Origin: a virus
Strand: one strand, 5' to 3'
DNA: 53,673 bases
Virus record (IMG/VR): IMGVR_UViG_3300020205_004424
Span: 1-53,673 of that record
Of the stretch, positions 26,577-37,042 are shown piece by piece. The stretch's first letter is position 1, and each line of letters begins with the position of its first letter. The position numbers were made by a program, and so were the translations under genes. The notes below the pieces were generated by a model. It was not told where the DNA came from, did not search any database, and was given only the letters and a program-made list of their open reading frames with translations.

Positions 26577-27302
26577 ATGAGTAATAGTGAAAACTTTTAC
26601 GTTTACTGTCATGTTAAAAAAACAGATGGTAAATGTTTTTATGTAGGGAAAGGAACAGGCAATCGCTTTCAAACAACATATTCCCGCAACAGGTATTGGA
26701 AAGATATAGTAGATCAACATGGATTTGAACCTATTATATTAATTAATAATATATCTGAATCAAATGCTTTTAAATTTGAATCTATTATATGCGAAAAGAT
26801 AGGATATAATAATCTTGTAAATATACGAAAAGAAGAAGGTTGGGGAGGACACCGTCATCAACCTGAAACCCTGAAAAAACTATCTAAACCAGTTTTACAA
26901 TATACAAAAGAAGGTATTTTAGTAAAAACTTGGGATAGTGCTACTCTAGCAGCTAAATCGCTTAATAAATCTCATAGTGCTGCAATTACAGAATGTTGCA
27001 GAGGATTAAGACCATATATATACGGGTTTATTTGGAGACATATTGATAATCCTATAGAAGAACCCCAAAAAATAATTAATAGAAAAGAAAAATCAGAAAA
27101 AATACCACCATATTATCATCCAATAGAACAATATGATAAAAATGGTAATTTTATAAAATTATGGAACAATGCTAGAGAAATATCTCGTTCATTAAAAATA
27201 AAATCTGGTTCTATATCACAGTGCTTAAACGGTAAACATAAATCCGCTGGAGGATTTATTTGGAAAAAATCATTAAATAAGAAAGGAGTGCATTTTGCCT
27301 AA
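26577..27302 (+). CDS. GIY-YIG homing endonuclease with NUMOD-type repeats
   Basis: The product has 241 residues. The GIY-YIG core appears as FYVYCHV and FYVGKG (residues ~6-25) with N, R and K residues in GTGNRFQTTYSRNRYWK and a catalytic-type Glu in FKFESIICEKIGY. Two C-terminal repeats, VLQYTKEGILVKTW...GFIWR and IEQYDKNGNFIKLW...GFIWK, are NUMOD1-like DNA-binding units with helix-turn-helix segments. It is a free-standing mobile gene between small fibre-linked genes and a fibre gene. Its stop overlaps the fibre start by eight bases. Its leader is structured. Confidence 0.88.
   Translation: MSNSENFYVYCHVKKTDGKCFYVGKGTGNRFQTTYSRNRYWKDIVDQHGFEPIILINNISESNAFKFESIICEKIGYNNLVNIRKEEGWGGHRHQPETLKKLSKPVLQYTKEGILVKTWDSATLAAKSLNKSHSAAITECCRGLRPYIYGFIWRHIDNPIEEPQKIINRKEKSEKIPPYYHPIEQYDKNGNFIKLWNNAREISRSLKIKSGSISQCLNGKHKSAGGFIWKKSLNKKGVHFA
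27282..27297 (+). promoter_or_regulatory. Strong Shine-Dalgarno and TTG start of giant fibre gene
   Basis: AAAGGAG (27282-27288) lies six bases before TTG (27295). TTG is set as start because PNWKKVIVSGS aligns with MATWKKVIVSGS of the 25042 gene. Such a strong Shine-Dalgarno is exceptional in this window. It lies inside the end of the endonuclease gene. Confidence 0.7.
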
Positions 27303-30018
27303 TTGGAAGAAAGTAATTGTATCGGGCTCTGATGCCTCTCTGAATTCAATAACTACCCCCGCAGGTACAATCAATAATATTACGGCATCTTATGCGATGA
27401 CCGCATCCCATGCTTTAAACGGTGGTGTAACACAATTATTAGCAGGACCTAATATAACTCTTTCCCCAACAACAGGTAAAGGACAAGTAACTATTTCTTC
27501 TACCGGAGGTGGAGGACCCTTCTTTAATACAGCAACAGGATCTTATGGATCCTTTTATGATACAACAACTCAAACCAACCTAGTAGCTAATATTCCACGT
27601 TCAATGTCTTTTAATACAACAGACATTACAAATGGAGTTTCTATTTCAGGATCAACAAGCCCATTTAACACATATATTAAAACAGAAAATCCTGGTGTAT
27701 ACAATATCCAATTTTCTGCTCAAGTAGATAAAACAGACGGTGGTACTGATGATATTGTTATTTGGTTGAGAAAAAATGGAATTGATTTAATTGATACAGC
27801 AACTACATTAACATTACCAACAAATAACTCAAAAGTAGTAGCAGCTTGGAACTGGTTTGTAAACTCAGCGGCTAATGATTACTACCAAATTATATGGCTC
27901 TCAGCAGATACTGATCTAAGATTACTAGCCGAACCTATTTCAGGTACCCACCCAGGCATCCCTTCAGTAATATTAACTGCAAATAGAGTAGATCAATTTT
28001 TATCCAATACAGGATCATTTAGTGGTTCATTTACAGGAACATTTACAGGTTCATTACAAGGTACTGCAAGTTGGGCAACAAATGCTTTAACAGCATCAAA
28101 CATTTCTCCTGCCATAGCAAATGATGCAGATACTAGAATTCTAACTGCTAATGGAAACGGGACATTAAATGGTGAAGCCAACATGACATTTGATGGTACT
28201 ACATTAGCAGTTAATCAAAAATTAACAGTAGGAACATCCCACACCAACTCAGGAACATTATCCTCGATTGCCGGTGGTACTGGAAATATAGCATCAGGAA
28301 ACTGTTCATTTATCGGTGGTGGTACTTTAAATACGGGATCTGCAGATTTTTCAACAGTTGGAGGTGGAAAAGCTAACACAGCATCTGGTTATAATTCAAC
28401 AATAAGCGGAGGTATAAACAACACAGCTTCTAATTATTTTTCAACAGTAGGTGGTGGAAAATGTAACACAGCATCTTGTAATAATTCAACAGTAGGTGGT
28501 GGTAATTCAAATACTGCATCAGGTTATTATTCAACAGTAAGCGGAGGTACAAACAACATAGCATCTGGTTATAAATCAACAGTAAGCGGAGGTACAAACA
28601 ACACAGCATCTAGTTTTAATTCAACAGTAAGCGGAGGTACATACAACACAGCATCTAATTTTTATGCAACAGTAGGTGGTGGATTTGGCAACATAGCATC
28701 TGGTTATAAATCAACAATAAGCGGAGGTACAAACAACACAGCATCTGGTTATGTTTCAACAGTAAGCGGAGGTACATACAACACAGCATCTAGTTATTTT
28801 TCAACAATAAGCGGAGGTTCAACCAACACAGCATCTAGTTCTTGGTCAACAGTAGGTGGTGGATCTGGCAACACAGCATCTGGTTATTGGTCAACAGTAG
28901 GTGGTGGATCTGGCAACACAGCATCTGGTTATTGTTCAACAGTTAGTGGCGGATATTGCAATACAGCATCTGGTTATTGTTCAACAGTTAGTGGTGGATA
29001 TAATAATACAGCATCCGGACCTCGGTCAACAGTTGGAGGTGGAAAAGCTAACACAGCATCTGGTTATAATTCAACAATAAGCGGAGGTACAAACAACACA
29101 GCTCAAGCATTTGCAGGGTTCATAGGTGGTGGTAACTGCAATAATGTTTGTAATGTAACAAGTGGATGCCTTGCTTATGGGGCAGTAGTTGCGGGTGGTG
29201 TAGGTAATAATACTGATGGAGGTACATGGAATTTATCACTTGGTTTATTTCTTTTTCCACCAACTATTTGCAACGCAGGTCAGTATTCATTTATAGGTGG
29301 TGGTTTTCAGAATAAAGCATCAGGAAATTATTCAACAGTTAGTGGTGGATATAATAATACAGCATCTGGTTATAAATCAACAGTAGGTGGTGGTAATTAT
29401 AATACAGCATCTAATTATTATTCAGTTGTTGGTGGTGGATCTGGCAACACAGCATCTGGTAATCGTTCAACAGTAGGTGGTGGTAATTCAAACACAGCTT
29501 CTAATTTATATGCAACGGTTAGTGGTGGATATTGCAACACAGCATCTGGTTATTATTCAACAATTGGTGGTGGTGGATGTAATACAGCTTTAGTAAATTA
29601 TTCAATAGTAGGTGGTGGTCGTTTAAACATAGCATCTGGTTATAATTCAACAGTAGGTGGTGGTATTGCTAATACAGCATCTTGTTATTGGTCAACAGTT
29701 AGTGGTGGTCATTCAAACACAGCTTCTAATTGTTTTTCAACAGTTAGTGGTGGATATTGCAACACAGCATCTGGTACTCGTTCAACAGTAGGTGGTGGAA
29801 GAACTAATACAGCATCAGGAACATATTCAGGTATTTTAGGTGGGTGCGGAAATACTGCATCATGTGCTTGTTCATTTATAGTAGGTACACAGATTACAAC
29901 AGATAGAGTTTGCACAACATTTGTAAATAATCTTTCTATTAAAAATGTCCCAACATCTGCAGCTGGTTTGCCTGCTGGTTCTGTTTGGTCTAATGGTGGA
30001 GTTTTAAATATTGTCTAA
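27295..30018 (+). CDS. Giant repeat tail fibre/adhesin
   Basis: The product has 907 residues. Residues 1-20 form the anchor shared with the 25042 protein. A beta-sandwich region at ~75-235 (YNIQFSAQVDK, DIVIWLRKNGIDL, YYQIIWLSAD) resembles C1q/TNF-like phage domains. From ~320 to ~865, some 35 units of 14 residues follow the pattern STVGGGxxNTASGxx, a YadA-like beta-roll. Variable positions hold Y, W, F, C, K, R or N. The C-terminus is short (VWSNGGVLNIV). It is likely a receptor-binding fibre. It uses a TTG start and follows a homing endonuclease gene. Confidence 0.85.
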   Translation: MPNWKKVIVSGSDASLNSITTPAGTINNITASYAMTASHALNGGVTQLLAGPNITLSPTTGKGQVTISSTGGGGPFFNTATGSYGSFYDTTTQTNLVANIPRSMSFNTTDITNGVSISGSTSPFNTYIKTENPGVYNIQFSAQVDKTDGGTDDIVIWLRKNGIDLIDTATTLTLPTNNSKVVAAWNWFVNSAANDYYQIIWLSADTDLRLLAEPISGTHPGIPSVILTANRVDQFLSNTGSFSGSFTGTFTGSLQGTASWATNALTASNISPAIANDADTRILTANGNGTLNGEANMTFDGTTLAVNQKLTVGTSHTNSGTLSSIAGGTGNIASGNCSFIGGGTLNTGSADFSTVGGGKANTASGYNSTISGGINNTASNYFSTVGGGKCNTASCNNSTVGGGNSNTASGYYSTVSGGTNNIASGYKSTVSGGTNNTASSFNSTVSGGTYNTASNFYATVGGGFGNIASGYKSTISGGTNNTASGYVSTVSGGTYNTASSYFSTISGGSTNTASSSWSTVGGGSGNTASGYWSTVGGGSGNTASGYCSTVSGGYCNTASGYCSTVSGGYNNTASGPRSTVGGGKANTASGYNSTISGGTNNTAQAFAGFIGGGNCNNVCNVTSGCLAYGAVVAGGVGNNTDGGTWNLSLGLFLFPPTICNAGQYSFIGGGFQNKASGNYSTVSGGYNNTASGYKSTVGGGNYNTASNYYSVVGGGSGNTASGNRSTVGGGNSNTASNLYATVSGGYCNTASGYYSTIGGGGCNTALVNYSIVGGGRLNIASGYNSTVGGGIANTASCYWSTVSGGHSNTASNCFSTVSGGYCNTASGTRSTVGGGRTNTASGTYSGILGGCGNTASCACSFIVGTQITTDRVCTTFVNNLSIKNVPTSAAGLPAGSVWSNGGVLNIV
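28261..29880 (+). repeat. 42-bp coding repeats with hypervariable codons
   Basis: About 35 units based on TCAACAGTAGGTGGTGGA and AACACAGCATCTGGTTAT, nearly invariant in the scaffold codons but changing at 2-4 codons each. One irregular, longer unit interrupts the array at ~29100-29280. Confidence 0.85.
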
Positions 30019-30073: not shown

Positions 30074-30967
30074 ATGGAAAAAAAATATTCAATTTTTCAC
30101 ATTGAAGGTGGTTTAGGAAAACATATTGCTGCAACTGCTGTTGCACGTTGTATTAAGAAAAATCATCCCGATCGTGAACTTATCATAGTTTGTGCTTACC
30201 CACAACCCTTTTTAAATTTAGATTTTGTGTCTCGTGTATATAGAATAGGTGTCACACCATATTTCTATAAAGATTATATTGATCAAAAAGATACACTTAT
30301 ATTCAAACACGAACCATATTTCACAACAGAACATATTCATAAAACACTTCCACTAATTGAAAATTGGTGCAAGTTATATAATTTAGAATATAATGGTGAA
30401 CAACCTGAACTATCATTCAATGATAGAGAGTTACAAAAATATAGTAGAACATGGCAATCTCAAAAACCTATATTTGTGATTCAATCAAATGGAGGACTAC
30501 TTAATTCCGAAAGTGGTTTACCTTATAGATGGACTAGAGATATTCCATTTGACATTACTCAACAAATTGTAGACAAATACCAAGACCAATACACAATATA
30601 TCAAATTACAAGACCTGGATCCCCAGTTGCTAATGGTGCTATTGAAGTTACAAATGAAATGACTTCAATGGAATTGCTTTCTGTATTGTTGTATTCTGAA
30701 AAACGTTTATTGATTGATTCATCTTTGCAACATGCCGCAGCTGCTTTAAATTTACCTTCAACTGTATTGTGGGTTGGAACATCTCCAAAAGTATTTGGAT
30801 ATGATCTACACGATAATATTGTTGCTGAAATTCCTGAAGATCAAAAACTTCCGGATAGTTATTTCTTTGACTATGATTTTGAAGGTCAATTACATGACTA
30901 TCCATTTAAAGGAGATTTATTTGACATAGATACAATTACAAAATCACTAACAAGACAAAGTTTATAA
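30074..30967 (+). CDS. Glycosyltransferase, family 9-like
   Basis: The product has 297 residues. The N-terminal domain has HIEGGLGKHIAATAVARCI, as in heptosyltransferase-like enzymes that use a GG-GK acceptor loop. The C-terminal nucleotide-sugar domain has LLIDSSLQHAAAALNLPSTV followed by LWVGTSP, matching the GT9 pattern DSGxxHxAaAxxxPxxxLwG. It should transfer a sugar to a glycan on the host surface or the virion. It starts a run of glycan and sulfur genes and overlaps the sulfotransferase start by one base. No late box is upstream. Confidence 0.8.
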   Translation: MEKKYSIFHIEGGLGKHIAATAVARCIKKNHPDRELIIVCAYPQPFLNLDFVSRVYRIGVTPYFYKDYIDQKDTLIFKHEPYFTTEHIHKTLPLIENWCKLYNLEYNGEQPELSFNDRELQKYSRTWQSQKPIFVIQSNGGLLNSESGLPYRWTRDIPFDITQQIVDKYQDQYTIYQITRPGSPVANGAIEVTNEMTSMELLSVLLYSEKRLLIDSSLQHAAAALNLPSTVLWVGTSPKVFGYDLHDNIVAEIPEDQKLPDSYFFDYDFEGQLHDYPFKGDLFDIDTITKSLTRQSL

Positions 30968-31782
30968 TGCAAAAGTTATTTTTTCAATCATCCTTGCCTA
31001 GAGCAGGATCAACCCTATTACAAAATGTTTTAGGACAGAACCCCGATTTTTATGTTACACCAACCTCTGGTGTTCTAGAACTCGTTTATGCTGCCCGTAA
31101 CAACTATTCAACATCAGCTGAATTCAAAGCACAAGATTCTGATTTGATGCGAGAAGGATTTAAACAATTCTGCCATGATGGCGTTACTGGTTTTTTTAAA
31201 GCAGTAACAGACAAACCATATATAATGGACAAAAGTAGAGGATGGGGCTATCATAGAGATTTCCTAGATTTCTTCTACCCAGATCCAAAAATTGTATGTA
31301 TGATTCGAGATCCTAGAGCTATATTTTCTTCTATGGAAAAAAACTTTAGAAAAAACCCCGAACAAGACAAAGGTATAGTTAACCATGCAGAAATGGCAGG
31401 TGTAACCACCGAACAACGCATTGATATGTGGGCAGCAGGTGTCCCTGTGGGAATGGCACTACAGCGTTTATATCAAATAGTAAAAGAAGGAAATGACCAA
31501 AAAATGCTATTTGTGAAATATGAAGACCTAATGAAAAACCCACAAGGTGAAATGGATCGAATCTACAAATATTTAGACATTCCTTCATACACCCATGACT
31601 TTGATAACATCCAACAAATTACCCAAGAAGATGATGAAGTATATGGCGCATATGGAGACCATACAATTAAACCAAAACTAACCCCAGTAAAACCAGATTG
31701 GAACGAAGTACTAGGAAAAAGTGCAGCTGCATGGATTCGTAGTAATTATACATGGTTCTACGAATATTTCGGATACGCTTAA
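30967..31782 (+). CDS. PAPS-dependent sulfotransferase
   Basis: The product has 271 residues. The 5'-phosphosulfate loop is SSLPRAGSTLLQNVL (8-22), with the usual R12, G14, S15 and T16. The 3'-phosphate motif is CMIRDPRAIFSSM (111-123), and KYEDLMKNP follows, as in bacterial Sulfotransfer family members. It transfers sulfate from PAPS to a hydroxyl or amine, probably on a carbohydrate. It is translationally coupled to the glycosyltransferase (TAATG). PAPS can be made by the APS kinase encoded 360 bases downstream. Confidence 0.9.
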   Translation: MQKLFFQSSLPRAGSTLLQNVLGQNPDFYVTPTSGVLELVYAARNNYSTSAEFKAQDSDLMREGFKQFCHDGVTGFFKAVTDKPYIMDKSRGWGYHRDFLDFFYPDPKIVCMIRDPRAIFSSMEKNFRKNPEQDKGIVNHAEMAGVTTEQRIDMWAAGVPVGMALQRLYQIVKEGNDQKMLFVKYEDLMKNPQGEMDRIYKYLDIPSYTHDFDNIQQITQEDDEVYGAYGDHTIKPKLTPVKPDWNEVLGKSAAAWIRSNYTWFYEYFGYA

Positions 31783-31786
31783 TATT

Positions 31787-31794
31787 TATAAACA
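31787..31794 (+). promoter_or_regulatory. Late promoter box TATAAACA
   Basis: It lies within AATATTTATAAACAAAAG and ends nine bases before the ATG at 31804. Confidence 0.75.
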
Positions 31795-31803
31795 AAAGAC
31801 AAT

Positions 31804-32124
31804 ATGACAATAGGATGGACAATTTCAAGTATGAAACGCTTAACCGATGATGGTTTAGTAGTACAAGCAACTTATATCTTTCAAGCACAGGAAGGTAGTT
31901 TTATCAATAGAAAAGTAGGCGATATGACATTTTCTGGAAGTGTAGATGAGCCTGGCTATATCCCTTACGAGGATCTTACTCAAGATGATGTATTGAATTG
32001 GGTATTTACTAGATTAGGTGATGGAAAAGTAGCTATTGAAGCAGATGTTACTTTAGCTACTGAAACACAATATTCGGCATCAATTGCTAACCCATACTCA
32101 AACGGAGTTCCTTGGAACAATTAA
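31804..32124 (+). CDS. Small conserved phage protein
   Basis: The product has 106 residues, starting MTIGWTISSMKRLTDDGLVV. Tandem beta strands are followed by IPYEDLTQDDVLNWVF and a short helix. Small proteins of this form are common next to fibre genes of cyanophages and related phages (DUF7936-like, by memory). It carries its own late box, so it is a virion or assembly protein rather than part of the sulfur pathway. The function is unknown. Confidence 0.6.
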   Translation: MTIGWTISSMKRLTDDGLVVQATYIFQAQEGSFINRKVGDMTFSGSVDEPGYIPYEDLTQDDVLNWVFTRLGDGKVAIEADVTLATETQYSASIANPYSNGVPWNN

Positions 32125-32142
32125 TACAAAATTTAAATAGTT

Positions 32143-32613
32143 ATGATTTATTGGTTTACCGGACAGCCTGGAGCAGGTAAAACTGTTTTAGCAACTGCTT
32201 TAAAACAAGAAATGGACAACACTTTCCATATTGATGGAGATGATTTACGTGCCATTTTCGATAACAAAGATTATAGTGAAACTGGTAGAAGAAAAAATAT
32301 TGAGCTAGCGCAACAACTAGCTCATTTTCTTTACAATAAAGGAAACAACGTAGTTGTATCCCTTGTTTCACCATACAAAGATCAACGTGAAGAATTTAAA
32401 ACAAAACTTGGAGACTCATTAAAAGAGTTTTATGTTCATACTACTGAAATACGAGGACGAGAAAATTTCCATGTTGAAAACTATCAACAACCAACAGAAA
32501 ATTATCTTGATATAGATACTACAAATATTTCCGTTGAAGAATGTTTAAACAAAATTAAAAGTTATGCAAAATTGGACCAAGAAAGTACACGTACAATCAT
32601 CCCTACAATCTAA
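32143..32613 (+). CDS. cysC: Adenylylsulfate (APS) kinase
   Basis: The product has 156 residues. Walker A is GQPGAGKT (7-14). The APS-binding segment is HIDGDDLR (29-36), and VVVSLVSPYKDQREEFK is the characteristic CysC strand-helix. The protein is shorter than bacterial CysC (~200) and the lid region is reduced. It phosphorylates APS to PAPS, the donor for the sulfotransferase upstream. The start context is ATAGTTATG. Its 3' end overlaps the next gene by 50 bases in another frame. Confidence 0.87.
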   Translation: MIYWFTGQPGAGKTVLATALKQEMDNTFHIDGDDLRAIFDNKDYSETGRRKNIELAQQLAHFLYNKGNNVVVSLVSPYKDQREEFKTKLGDSLKEFYVHTTEIRGRENFHVENYQQPTENYLDIDTTNISVEECLNKIKSYAKLDQESTRTIIPTI

Positions 32614-32968
32614 ACCAAACCAATACGCTTTATTTATTGGTCGTTGGCAACCATTACATGATGGGCATAAAGCTCTATTCCAACAAGCTTTAGATGAAGG
32701 AAAAAATGTTTGGATTGCAATCCGAGATGTTGAAACAACTGAATCAAACCCATTTGATGCTCAAGAAGTACTTAAAAATATTGGAAATGAATATAAAGAA
32801 CTATGTGGCCAAGGCAGAATTAAAGTCAGCATCATCCCTGACATATGTTCAGTGGAGTTTGGTAGAGGAGTGGGCTATGATATTATTGAGCATATTCCTC
32901 CTGTAGAGGTAGCTGAAATATCTGCTACAAAAGTAAGAGAGCAAATGCGTAAAGAAGGTAAATTATGA
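32564..32968 (+). CDS. HxGH nucleotidyltransferase, possible minimal ATP sulfurylase
   Basis: The product has 134 residues. The nucleotidyltransferase signature is GRWQPLHDGHKAL (26-38), with HDGH as HxGH; ISATKVREQMR (119-129) is the second motif, as in ATP sulfurylase, NMN adenylyltransferase and cytidylyltransferases. The substrate cannot be set from sequence. Fusion-like overlap with APS kinase and the DUF2061 neighbour favours APS synthesis. The protein is much shorter than known ATP sulfurylases, so it could serve another step. The start may lie further in, since the first ~18 residues overlap cysC. Confidence 0.72.
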   Translation: MQNWTKKVHVQSSLQSKPNQYALFIGRWQPLHDGHKALFQQALDEGKNVWIAIRDVETTESNPFDAQEVLKNIGNEYKELCGQGRIKVSIIPDICSVEFGRGVGYDIIEHIPPVEVAEISATKVREQMRKEGKL

Positions 32969-33186
32969 AAGAAGATAAAAAATCGGCAATGACACGCCAC
33001 ATCTTAAAAACGCTTTCATACCGTATTTTAGATACGTTAACAACAGTGTTTGTTGCTTATTCTTTAGGTGCATCACTTGAATTGTCTTCATTACTTGGTG
33101 TAGGAGAATTATTAATTAAACCTACATTGTATTTTTTCCATGAACGTATTTGGTACAAGTACATTCGAATAGGAAATAAAAAATAA
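32965..33186 (+). CDS. DUF2061 membrane protein
   Basis: The product has 73 residues. KSAMTRHILKTLSYRILDTL and ELLIKPTLYFFHERIWYKY are the two signature blocks of DUF2061, around two hydrophobic helices (TVFVAYSLGA and SLLGVGELLIKPTLYFF). From memory, the family is often encoded beside or fused to sulfate-activation enzymes in bacteria, which fits here. A role in sulfate handling is inference. It overlaps the nucleotidyltransferase stop (ATGA). Confidence 0.82.
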   Translation: MKEDKKSAMTRHILKTLSYRILDTLTTVFVAYSLGASLELSSLLGVGELLIKPTLYFFHERIWYKYIRIGNKK

Positions 33187-33516: not shown

Positions 33517-35286
33517 ATGGCAGAAACAATTGTCTCACCTGGTGTATTAGCAATAGAGAACGATCAATCATTTGTAACTCAACAACCTGTACAAGCAGGT
33601 GCTGCTATCATTGGACCAACCGTTAAAGGTAAAGTAGGAATCCCTACTCTAGTAACTACATATAGTGATTATTTAAATAAGTTTGGTGCTACTTTCCTTA
33701 GTGGAAGTAACACCTATACTTTTTTAACTTCAATTGCAGCATATAATTATTTTGCTGGTGGTGGAAATACATTATTAGTTACCCGTGTAGTAAGTGGTAG
33801 TACATCAACCGCTTGGACCCCTGCAACATCTTCATTTATTTCTGCTTCCGCCCATTCAGTTGGTTCACCTTATAATACTAATGTTTTTGTACTAGAAACA
33901 ATATCTGAAGGTATTATTATGAATAGTGCCGGACCTACTGGTTCAAATGGTACATTATTGAGTGGATCAAATGAAAACTATAGATGGCAAATTGTATCCC
34001 CAGATACAAATAATGGAACGTTTTCACTTGTTATTCGTCAAGGAAATGATTCAAATATTCAACAATCTACTTTAGAAACTTGGGGTCCACTTTCATTGGA
34101 CCCATTTGCTTCAAATTATATTGAAAAAGTAATTGGAAACCAGGTTGAAACTATTCAAGTAGACAATGGTGAATATTATATTCAAATGTCTGGAAGTTAT
34201 GCAAACCAATCTGCTTACGTTCGTGTTAAACAAGTAAATCAAACTACTCCAAATTATTTTGATAATGTAGGAAATCCAAAAAATGAATATACTGGATCTA
34301 TTCCTACTACACAAAGTGGAGTATTTGGTGATGCTAAAGGAAATATTATCCCTACAGGTGTTGCTGCAGCGTATTATGAAAAAATTTCAAATACAAACAT
34401 TCAAGGTTTAACTGCAAATGATTATACTGAATCTATTTCTTTATTAGCAAATAAAGATGCATTTAAATATAATTTGTTAATTGCTCCTGGTTTAATTGCT
34501 GACCCAACTCAATTCCCTTTACATAACAGTGTAGTAAACCAAATGATTACTACTGTTCAAGAAAGAGGAGATTCAATGGTAGTAACCGATGTAGTCGGAT
34601 ATGGATCAAACATTAACCCAGTAGTTTCTAGTGCCCAAACTAAAGATACTTCATATGCCGCAGTATATTGGCCTTGGTTATACACAGTAGACCCAAATAC
34701 ATCTAATCAAGTGTGGGTACCTACAACAACATTAATCCCAAGAGTATATGCTCAAAATGATGCTATTGCTTATCCTTGGTTTGCACCTGCTGGTATTAAT
34801 CGTGGGGTAATGACATCTGTTATTAAAACAGAACGTATATTAACTCAAGGAAATAGAGATTTACTTTACAAAAATAATATAAATCCAATTGCAAATATTG
34901 CTACCGCTAATGGATCTGCAATAACAGTATTTGGACAAAAAACTCTACAGAAAAAATCAAGTGCTTTAGATCGTGTAAATGTACGTCGTTTATTAATTGA
35001 ACTTAAAAACTATATTTCTCAAGTAGCCGATACGTTTGTATTTGAACAAAACAATGCAATAACTAGAAGTAATTTATTATCATTAATTAATCCGTATTTA
35101 TCACAAGTTCAACAACAACAAGGATTAACAGCATTTCAAGTAGTAATAAACGAAACTAATAATCCACCTAGTGTTGTAGATCAAAATCAAATAATTGGTC
35201 AAATTTATTTACAACCTACTAGAACAGCTGAATATATCATACTTGATTTCAATATATTACCTACTGGTGCAACGTTTCCTGCTTAA
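33517..35286 (+). CDS. gp18: Tail sheath protein, copy 1
   Basis: The product has 589 residues. The N-terminal strand SPGVLAIENDQSFV and PVQAGAAIIGPTVKGKV, ALDRVNVRRLLIELKNYISQ and QIYLQPTRTAEYIILDF at the C-terminus are sheath hallmarks. The middle ~200 residues (surface domain) differ most from copy 2. It forms the contractile outer tail. It has its own late box. Confidence 0.93.
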   Translation: MAETIVSPGVLAIENDQSFVTQQPVQAGAAIIGPTVKGKVGIPTLVTTYSDYLNKFGATFLSGSNTYTFLTSIAAYNYFAGGGNTLLVTRVVSGSTSTAWTPATSSFISASAHSVGSPYNTNVFVLETISEGIIMNSAGPTGSNGTLLSGSNENYRWQIVSPDTNNGTFSLVIRQGNDSNIQQSTLETWGPLSLDPFASNYIEKVIGNQVETIQVDNGEYYIQMSGSYANQSAYVRVKQVNQTTPNYFDNVGNPKNEYTGSIPTTQSGVFGDAKGNIIPTGVAAAYYEKISNTNIQGLTANDYTESISLLANKDAFKYNLLIAPGLIADPTQFPLHNSVVNQMITTVQERGDSMVVTDVVGYGSNINPVVSSAQTKDTSYAAVYWPWLYTVDPNTSNQVWVPTTTLIPRVYAQNDAIAYPWFAPAGINRGVMTSVIKTERILTQGNRDLLYKNNINPIANIATANGSAITVFGQKTLQKKSSALDRVNVRRLLIELKNYISQVADTFVFEQNNAITRSNLLSLINPYLSQVQQQQGLTAFQVVINETNNPPSVVDQNQIIGQIYLQPTRTAEYIILDFNILPTGATFPA

Positions 35287-35332: not shown

Positions 35333-37042
35333 ATGGCAAATTTCACAACTTCTCCTGGAGTAGCAATTAGCGAAATAGACAACACATTCTTAACTGGACA
35401 ACCAGTTCAAGCAGGTGCTGCTATTATAGGCCCAACAGTTAAAGGTCCTGTTGAAAAACCAACACTTGTAACAACCTATTCAGACTTTGTAACATTGTTT
35501 GGAGATACATTCATTAGTGGTGGTAATTCTTATTCATACCTTACTTCAATTGCTGCTTACAATTATTTTAATTATGGAGGAACTTCATTATTAGTTGCTC
35601 GTGTAGCAAGTGGTTCTTATACATCTGCAGTTAGTACTACAATTCTTAACTCTATTCACCCAACATCAGCTTCATTTGTTTTAGAAACTATTTCTGAAGG
35701 AGAAATTATGAATAATTCAGGATCCATGTCTTCAGGATCCCTACTTTCAGGATCAGCTGATAATATTCGTTGGGAAATTACAAATGCAAATACTGGATCA
35801 GGTACATTCAATGTATTAATTCGTCGTGGTAATGATATTCCTACTAATAAAGTAGTATTAGAAGCATGGAATAACTTAACATTAGATCCAAATTCAAGTC
35901 GTTACATTGCTGCTGTAATTGGTGATCAAGAATTAAATTATAATAGTGCTACTCAACAAATGGAAGTATCTGGATCTTATCCAAACAGCTCACGTTATGT
36001 CCGTGTAAAATCTGTTAATTATCCAACTCCAAATTACTTCACTTCCACAGGAACCCCAGTAACTGCATATACTGCTTCAATCCCATTAAATGGAAGTGGC
36101 TCAGCGGGTGGTGCATTTACTAATGCTTCAGGAACTGTAAGTAATAATATTAAGTTATATGACCGAATTGATTCATCTACACAAGGATTAAGTGGTAGTG
36201 ACTATAATAACATGATTACACTTTTTGGTAATCCTGAAGCATTCCAATTTAATGTATTATTTACTCCTGGTTTGTTAAATAGCGAACACACTGCACAAGT
36301 TACAAATATTATCTCAAATACAATTTCAAGAGGAGATAATTTATATGTAATGGATTTAACAACATATAATAGTCCTATTGCATCAGCAATTCAACAAGCA
36401 AACACACGTGATACTTCATATGCCACAACATATTGGCCTTGGGTTCGTATTATCGACCCAGCAACAGGAAAACATGTTTGGGTGCCTGCTTCAACAGTAA
36501 TCCCAGGTGTATATGCGTTTAACGATAAAGTATCAGCTCCATGGTTTGCTCCAGCAGGTATAAACCGCGGTGGATTAAGCACAGTTCTCCAAGCTGAACT
36601 GAAATTGACACAAGGTAATCGTGACACGTTATACAGCAATAATATTAACCCTATTGCAACACTACCTCAACAAGGAGTTGTAGTATATGGTCAGAAAACA
36701 TTACAAAAAGCTCAATCTGCTCTTGATCGTGTAAACGTACGTCGTTTAATGATTGAATTGAAATCATATATTCGTCAAATTGCAGATACGATCGTGTTTG
36801 AACAAAATACAATTACTACAAGAATAGCATTTACTTCAAGAGTTACTCCATATTTGGAATCAATTCAACAAAAACAAGGTTTATACGCATTTAAAGTAGT
36901 AATGGATGATACAAATAACGGACCAGCAGTAATTGATCAAAACCAATTAGTAGGTCAAATTTATATCCAACCAACACGTACAGCTGAATTTATCTCACTA
37001 GACTTTATCTTAATGCCTACAGGAGCTGAATTCCCAGGGTAA
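35333..37042 (+). CDS. gp18: Tail sheath protein, copy 2
   Basis: The product has 569 residues. It shares with copy 1 the blocks PVQAGAAIIGPTVKG, TLVTTYSDF, SYLTSIAAYNYF, WFAPAGINRG, SALDRVNVRRLMIELKSY and the C-terminal QPTRTAEFISLDF. The DNA has diverged at many third positions, so the duplication is old. Each copy has its own late box, so both are probably made. They may build a mixed sheath or two tail states. Confidence 0.93.
   Translation: MANFTTSPGVAISEIDNTFLTGQPVQAGAAIIGPTVKGPVEKPTLVTTYSDFVTLFGDTFISGGNSYSYLTSIAAYNYFNYGGTSLLVARVASGSYTSAVSTTILNSIHPTSASFVLETISEGEIMNNSGSMSSGSLLSGSADNIRWEITNANTGSGTFNVLIRRGNDIPTNKVVLEAWNNLTLDPNSSRYIAAVIGDQELNYNSATQQMEVSGSYPNSSRYVRVKSVNYPTPNYFTSTGTPVTAYTASIPLNGSGSAGGAFTNASGTVSNNIKLYDRIDSSTQGLSGSDYNNMITLFGNPEAFQFNVLFTPGLLNSEHTAQVTNIISNTISRGDNLYVMDLTTYNSPIASAIQQANTRDTSYATTYWPWVRIIDPATGKHVWVPASTVIPGVYAFNDKVSAPWFAPAGINRGGLSTVLQAELKLTQGNRDTLYSNNINPIATLPQQGVVVYGQKTLQKAQSALDRVNVRRLMIELKSYIRQIADTIVFEQNTITTRIAFTSRVTPYLESIQQKQGLYAFKVVMDDTNNGPAVIDQNQLVGQIYIQPTRTAEFISLDFILMPTGAEFPG

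Follow-up and report, generated by a model that had tools for sequence, protein, structure and literature searches.

The window considered here is the whole of IMG/VR virus record IMGVR_UViG_3300020205_004424 (53,673 nucleotides, or 53.7 kb), which derives from a T4-like phage (Gp23 capsid match 6e-75). Between a repeat fibre gene and a tail sheath gene it carries a cassette of six plus-strand genes, for: GT, a glycosyltransferase-like protein; ST, a sulfotransferase dependent on 3'-phosphoadenosine 5'-phosphosulfate (PAPS); a DUF7936 protein; KIN, a short homologue of adenosine 5'-phosphosulfate (APS) kinase; NT, a minimal HxGH nucleotidyltransferase; and a DUF2061 membrane protein. There is good reason to think that this cassette encodes a sulfation pathway, with NT acting as a minimal ATP sulfurylase distinct from both Sat/Met3 and CysDN. 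The features are:

27295..30018, plus strand: repeat fibre protein, 907 residues, upstream neighbour of the cassette (open reading frame; UspA1_rep 6.4e-15, LbR_Ice_bind 5.4e-9)
30074..30967, plus strand: GT, GT9-like (heptosyltransferase-like) protein, partner of ST (PF01075 0.035)
30967..31782, plus strand: ST, PAPS-dependent sulfotransferase (Sulfotransfer_3 2.5e-24; Sulfotransfer_1 8.9e-15)
31784..31791, plus strand: ATTTATAA box, late-promoter-like, preceding the DUF7936, KIN, NT and DUF2061 genes (octamer enrichment)
31804..32124, plus strand: DUF7936 protein (PF25590 2.5e-13)
32143..32613, plus strand: KIN, short APS kinase homologue (PF01583, APS_kinase, 3.2e-15; 56.9 bits, cut-off 21.1)
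32564..32968, plus strand: NT, minimal HxGH nucleotidyltransferase (CTP_transf_like 3.3e-6; ATP-sulfurylase 0.022)
32965..33186, plus strand: DUF2061 small membrane protein (PF09834 2.7e-14; 53.7 bits, cut-off 23.1)

The gene junctions are short or overlapping: NT starts 50 bases before the end of the kinase gene, in a different frame, and the NT and DUF2061 genes also overlap. A preliminary description had proposed a sulfation module of five open reading frames between fibre and sheath genes. The open reading frame list and a profile scan bear out all five, and their location as well (fibre 27295..30018; sheath from 33517). The DUF7936 gene, absent from that description, sits within the cassette and is present in a subset of relatives.

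Two of the proteins have recognizable signatures of sulfate activation or transfer. ST scores well over the PF13469 cut-off (87.2 versus 27 bits), and its PAPS motifs, reported intact in the preliminary description, are also invariant among relatives (25-36 representatives): the 5'-phosphosulfate-binding P11-R12-x-G14-S15-T16 (PRAGST) and the 3'-phosphate-binding R114...S122. KIN, called an APS kinase in the preliminary description, is clearly a homologue of that enzyme. Its invariant motifs (GQPxxGK[TS], DGDxxR, and GRxxN) include the P-loop and the APS-pocket Arg and Asn; its profile matches APS kinase structures at 1.7e-17; and its structural model is of high confidence (pLDDT 92.5). The DUF2061 protein likewise lies clearly over the family cut-off, as its score above indicates.

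NT requires closer attention. Phage, bacterial, and archaeal members share the motifs GR[WYF]QPxHxGH, P[DN][IV]xx[VI]xxGR[GDN]VGY, and IS[AG]TxxR, along with an invariant Arg after strand 2. ATP sulfurylases carry RNP (QxRNPxHxxH), GRD, and SGTxxR loops (PMC3779200). The NT HxGH, GR[GDN]VGY, and IS[AG]TxxR loops resemble the HxxH/RNP, GRD, and SGTxxR loops, respectively, although the spacing from R to H differs. The ATP-sulfurylase profile matches 26 of 50 NT members, weakly (best 2e-4); it is second only to the general CTP_transf_like profile, and matches more members than does any other specific family. The AlphaFold2 model of NT (pLDDT 89) adopts a nucleotidylyltransferase fold, matching CoaD and NadM structures with Z of about 10; one archaeal ATP sulfurylase is among its Foldseek matches (E 0.065, TMq 0.46). 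Structure prediction, proposed earlier as a check on this product, thus establishes the fold but does not separate ATP sulfurylase from the adenylyltransferases for nicotinamide mononucleotide (NMN) or phosphopantetheine. (An assignment as the CysD sulfate adenylyltransferase was rejected, since the model does not have the PP-loop fold of CysD.)

More telling is the company that NT keeps in cellular genomes. Homologues 48-61% identical to it are found in Marinimicrobia, SAR11, marine group III archaea, haloarchaea, and others, and most of those outside SAR11 have KIN adjacent or fused. NT is fused to a full-length APS kinase in a Nomurabacteria genome (L305; PF01583 187 bits), where the adjoining gene matches Sulfotransfer_5 weakly (0.0012), and in Haladaptatus (L268; 152 bits); an Omnitrophota fusion (L267) joins NT and a full-length kinase in the reversed order, with the kinase lid intact. 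In one Marinimicrobia genome (L242) a separate full-length APS kinase gene (236 bits) ends 2 bases before NT, and a Sulfotransfer_5 gene (1.8e-47) lies about 2 kb upstream. Among 100 Marinimicrobia genomes sampled only two contain NT, both with an adjacent APS kinase, too few for statistics. Across 20 NT-bearing genomes canonical Sat was found in three, and CysD over cut-off in none. A general role in assimilation was considered and set aside: PF01507 exceeds its cut-off in only three of 13 genomes with KIN and NT, and PAPS reduction is therefore not general there. (In a marine group III archaeon, L258:4960-9612, KIN-NT is flanked, to judge from sequence, by genes for S-adenosylmethionine synthetase and serine hydroxymethyltransferase, with methionine-synthesis-like genes nearby.)

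In SAR11 the context is different. Here NT lies directly upstream of aprM-aprB-aprA, with a gene that reads as TauE/SafE-like downstream in 48 loci. Of 55 loci, 51 have aprM adjoining NT (for instance L262:7959-11577, where the NT gene encodes 126 residues), 50 have aprA, and 48 have aprB. The gene immediately preceding aprMBA in Allochromatium vinosum is sat (PMC3779200), so the SAR11 gene occupies the exact sat position. Among 117 Pelagibacterales genomes, 79 contain both NT and aprA, five NT only, seven aprA only, and 26 neither (Fisher p 7e-15, a value that ignores kinship; these genomes are related and the counts not independent, which weakens the case). Of the 79 genomes carrying both, 37 have NT and aprA no more than 2 kb apart. 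Two arrangements occur, one co-directional upstream of aprM and the other convergent with aprA. Canonical ATP sulfurylase (PF01747) is present in only seven of the 117 genomes, and the sulfate pathways of SAR11 have been called incomplete (PMC12636525). On this genomic evidence, SAR11 NT is a candidate for the missing ATP sulfurylase of sulfite oxidation. Some SAR11 genomes (L344-L351) encode a Sat-like protein whose RN[VI]PH motif is unusual, besides or in place of NT.

APS kinase, APS reductase, and a nucleotidyltransferase have a single metabolite in common, APS, and NT is most simply read as an ATP sulfurylase. The preliminary suggestion that the nucleotidyltransferase could make APS, called the weak link in that description, is thus strengthened, both by relatives fused to full-length APS kinases and by those in the sat slot. 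Motifs and gene neighbourhoods make it probable that NT represents a third, minimal type of ATP sulfurylase, in which case the entire route from sulfate through APS and PAPS to a sulfated product would be phage-encoded. NT would convert ATP and sulfate to APS and pyrophosphate; KIN would phosphorylate APS with ATP, yielding PAPS and ADP; and ST would pass the PAPS sulfonyl group on to an acceptor, likely a sugar that GT adds to a virion fibre or the host surface. The DUF7936 and DUF2061 proteins would be accessories.

Phage genomes show how the cassette is put together. From IMG/VR, 80 loci each were retrieved with KIN, NT, and ST as anchors and annotated with profiles built for the purpose; relatives were picked by similarity and the frequencies apply to near relatives, and many contigs and single-cell genomes are incomplete. 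The KIN-anchored loci include NT in 79 cases, DUF2061 in 77, ST in 40, and GT in 34; the NT-anchored loci include KIN in 79, DUF2061 in 75, ST in 64, and GT in 58; and the ST-anchored loci include GT in 63, KIN in 38, and NT in 36. The sulfation genes therefore do co-occur in related phages, as the preliminary description required. Distinct kinase genes define 126 loci, 88 of which contain ST. The cassette comprises two sub-units, often combined: a near-inseparable KIN-NT-DUF2061 unit and a tightly paired GT-ST unit. Gene order flanking the core varies, so the association has been maintained through rearrangement; and because it recurs in more than 100 distinct phage loci, the arrangement is far beyond chance. 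Two phage loci (L174 and L199) carry KIN=NT gene fusions. In many relatives (including L007, L010, and L048) a gap of about 242 bases between NT and DUF2061 holds a possible small gene, absent from the window.

The route had been thought unusual for a phage. Rather, the cassette is common in uncultivated aquatic phages, though rare in cultured ones: cultured phage records yielded five with NT and ten with a sulfotransferase but none with the whole cassette, and a DNA-level search of cultured phages returned nothing useful. The cultured NT phages are Stenotrophomonas phages DLP6, Suzuki, and Bhz60, Clavibacter phage 33, and Xanthomonas phage AhaSv. The kinase=NT fusion itself was read only in Suzuki and DLP6 (L332:5587-6324 and L333:4593-5324, respectively), where it has the GRDVGY variant and is annotated as hypothetical. 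These kinase=NT phages are the easiest experimental entry, although their fusions could serve another use.

The DUF2061 gene offers a further link to sulfate activation. In four of seven Bacteroidota loci a DUF2061 gene is directly beside cysH, cysD, and cysN, as read from sequence (L336:4920-5171, L337:4572-4838, L338:4862-5140, and L339:4840-5070). The phage protein scores 105-128 against these four cys-operon copies versus 58-83 against the other three. This context favours sulfate activation as the role of the cassette overall, and the best explanation of the DUF2061 protein is as a putative small membrane accessory of that process.

The acceptor is a separate question. GT was found in 76 of 88 ST-bearing but only one of 38 ST-less non-redundant kinase loci. 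Its resemblance to GT9 enzymes is partial: the window protein falls under the PF01075 cut-off (13.9 versus 22 bits), whereas eight of 21 relatives match that family (best 2.9e-5), and no known-structure relative is detectable by sequence. Thus, of the preliminary proposal, sulfate activation and sulfation are well supported, whereas for the sugar acceptor the sole basis is the tight pairing of ST with this weakly GT9-like protein. On that pairing, the acceptor is most probably a sugar attached by the neighbouring GT.

Other features of the window concern expression and neighbouring genes. The octamer ATTTATAA occurs 27 times versus 13.4 expected, about twice the expected frequency and a count reached in none of 100 shuffles. 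Sites include 31784, 33190, 33495, 35313, and 39091; of 19 plus-strand copies, 14 are 18-30 bases before the start of an open reading frame. It is a probable late promoter element. The late box noted previously within the module is indeed there, at 31784, 20 bases from the DUF7936 start; as one of the 14 copies with fixed spacing it is consistent with late expression. Downstream of the cassette are two successive similar sheath-like genes (33517-35286 and 35333-37042), the first of which matches sheath families. A protein with NUMOD1 and I-HmuI-like domains, probably related to homing endonucleases, is encoded between fibre genes (26577-27302).

Several observations weigh against a sulfation pathway that begins with NT. 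The window NT scores below the Sat cut-off (PF01747, 14.6 versus 24.3 bits), and its nearest profile is archaeal NadM, not Sat (hhalign probabilities 97.6% and 7%, the Sat side being a single sequence after a motif filter that left out the SAR11 RN[VI]PH variants). The RNP-loop spacing differs (GRWQPLHDGH versus QxRNPxHxxH). KIN does not have the APS-kinase lid segment (KGxYKxAxxGxIxxFTG), which its cellular counterparts retain. About half of the kinase-anchored phage loci are without a recognized ST nearby, and whole-record searches found Sulfotransfer_3 in only one of 32 ST-less kinase records; a universal link between KIN, NT, and ST was accordingly rejected. No obvious sulfation neighbours accompany the kinase=NT fusions in the two cultured Stenotrophomonas phages examined. 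Another gene family, of about 240 residues, lies near KIN-NT-DUF2061 in 11 of the 38 ST-less kinase loci (L045:10919-11620, L069:9478-10209, and nine others); of two members scanned, only one matched Sulfotransfer_2, and that marginally. Genes for tryptophan halogenase, carbamoyltransferase, and 2-oxoglutarate (2OG)-oxygenase occur in some of these loci.

The likeness to NadM invites a different account, in which NT adenylylates NMN, KIN phosphorylates a nucleoside, and the two salvage NAD for the infected cell next to an unrelated ST. Not only the nearest profiles but also the nearest solved structures of NT are NadM; and kinase-NMN adenylyltransferase fusions (NadR) exist, as do phage NAD genes. 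Yet NT falls far below the NadM equivalog cut-off (TIGR01527, 28.9 versus 181.2 bits). Of the NadM segments that function in NMN binding, the GSA..H loop is replaced by the invariant R, and GRGVGY stands in place of NAVWVSH. Moreover, KIN matches APS kinase rather than ribosylnicotinamide kinase, fusions of NT with full-length APS kinases exist in both orders, NT also occupies the sat slot beside aprMBA, and a haloarchaeon with a KIN=NT fusion keeps a separate true NadM (257 bits). NAD salvage is accordingly improbable. So, to the same degree, is the idea of NT as an APS:phosphate adenylyltransferase (ADP sulfurylase), or as an enzyme working only in reverse to degrade APS, the phage drawing APS from its host. 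The oxidative SAR11 context (AprBA, with the TauE/SafE-like gene downstream) would suit it, but fusion or adjacency to APS kinase in company with sulfotransferases, and without CysD, implies APS formation for PAPS; and ATP sulfurylase is reversible (PMC3779200), which counts against a reverse-only enzyme. A precedent for KIN and NT as diverged relics acting on another substrate is Campylobacter Cj1415, which is homologous to APS kinases but phosphorylates a cytidine diphosphoramidate. The missing lid and a score below the NCBIfam apsK equivalog cut-off (TIGR00455, 65 versus 138.7 bits) fit such a history; the pairing of cellular NT with full-length, lid-bearing APS kinases, and its place beside APS reductase, make it very improbable, marginally more so than the preceding two.

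For the last step there is a more serious rival, because ST is nearest to tyrosine sulfotransferases and the fibre is Ser/Thr-rich with regular aromatics: PAPS is made, but ST modifies tyrosine or serine/threonine in the fibre, or a small molecule, rather than a glycan. The best solved-structure match to the ST profile is protein-tyrosine sulfotransferase 1 (5e-10). The neighbouring fibre, a possible acceptor judging from its composition, consists of Ser/Thr/Asn-rich 'NTASGYxSTVSGG' repeats, with 28 NTAS-type copies and 12 regular ASGY/ASGF positions. A repeat-rich structural gene cluster (defined by single linkage) is near 67 of the 88 ST loci versus two of the 38 ST-less loci, an association confounded by tail-region location. 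However, tyrosine sulfotransferases prefer acidic surroundings, absent from the fibre repeats, and the ST-GT pairing in 76 of the 88 loci suggests a sugar. A non-glycan acceptor thus seems unlikely overall, though deserving of more weight than the three preceding accounts. Possible purposes of sulfation include fibre modification, host-surface masking, and alteration of host polysaccharide.

How does an NT-based pathway compare with known systems? With Sat/Met3 (PF01747), NT shares the proposed reaction, the nucleotidylyltransferase superfamily, resemblances in the His-x-x-His, GRD-like, and S-G/A-T-x-x-R loops, and, in SAR11, the position upstream of aprMBA; it differs in its core of about 115 rather than roughly 400 residues, in having no PUA-like amino-terminal domain, and in its subthreshold Pfam score, NadM-like profile, and RNP spacing. 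PAPS synthases likewise have ATP-sulfurylase-like and APS-kinase domains adjacent or fused, in both orders, but in the cassette a small NadM-like protein replaces the ATP sulfurylase part and phages mostly have two separate, overlapping genes. CysDN makes APS, the proposed NT product, and Bacteroidota CysDN operons contain DUF2061; however, CysDN has another fold, is coupled to a GTPase, and its CysD was not found over cut-off in the NT-bearing genomes tested. Archaeal NadM shares the GRFQPxHxGH motif, the fold, and an NPFT segment, whereas NT is shorter, does not conserve the NMN-side segments, resides in APS-related contexts, and coexists with true NadM. The sulfotransferases of cyanophages S-SKS1, S-SRM01, and S-SCSM1 are homologous to ST (28-29% identity), with a glycosyltransferase nearby in S-SRM01, but those records have no NT match. 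Viral cysC, cysD, and cysH auxiliary metabolic genes also place sulfate activation on phages but usually are read as assimilatory; here the set would feed a sulfotransferase and start with a new type of enzyme. Viral cysC and cyanophage sulfotransferases are each known separately. The literature searched, which took in only a minority of subscription papers, yielded no report of an NT-type enzyme and none of a PAPS-sulfotransferase cassette in phages.

NT stands a fair chance of proving to be a new class of ATP sulfurylase. A fuller version holds that this third class is NadM-derived and the smallest known, that it supplies the last enzyme lacking from SAR11 sulfite oxidation, and that with the short KIN it makes a PAPS pathway self-sufficient in many aquatic phages, where glycans of the fibre or host surface are sulfated; this, taken as a whole, we regard as evenly poised between right and wrong. 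Should NT prove to be an ATP sulfurylase, sulfite oxidation would be completed in SAR11, which have been described as the most abundant surface-ocean heterotrophs, by a gene that now bears only a generic nucleotidyltransferase name, and sulfate activation would have a third solution. Many phages would then carry a complete PAPS route together with a sulfotransferase, making phage-directed sulfation of glycans or fibres directly testable.

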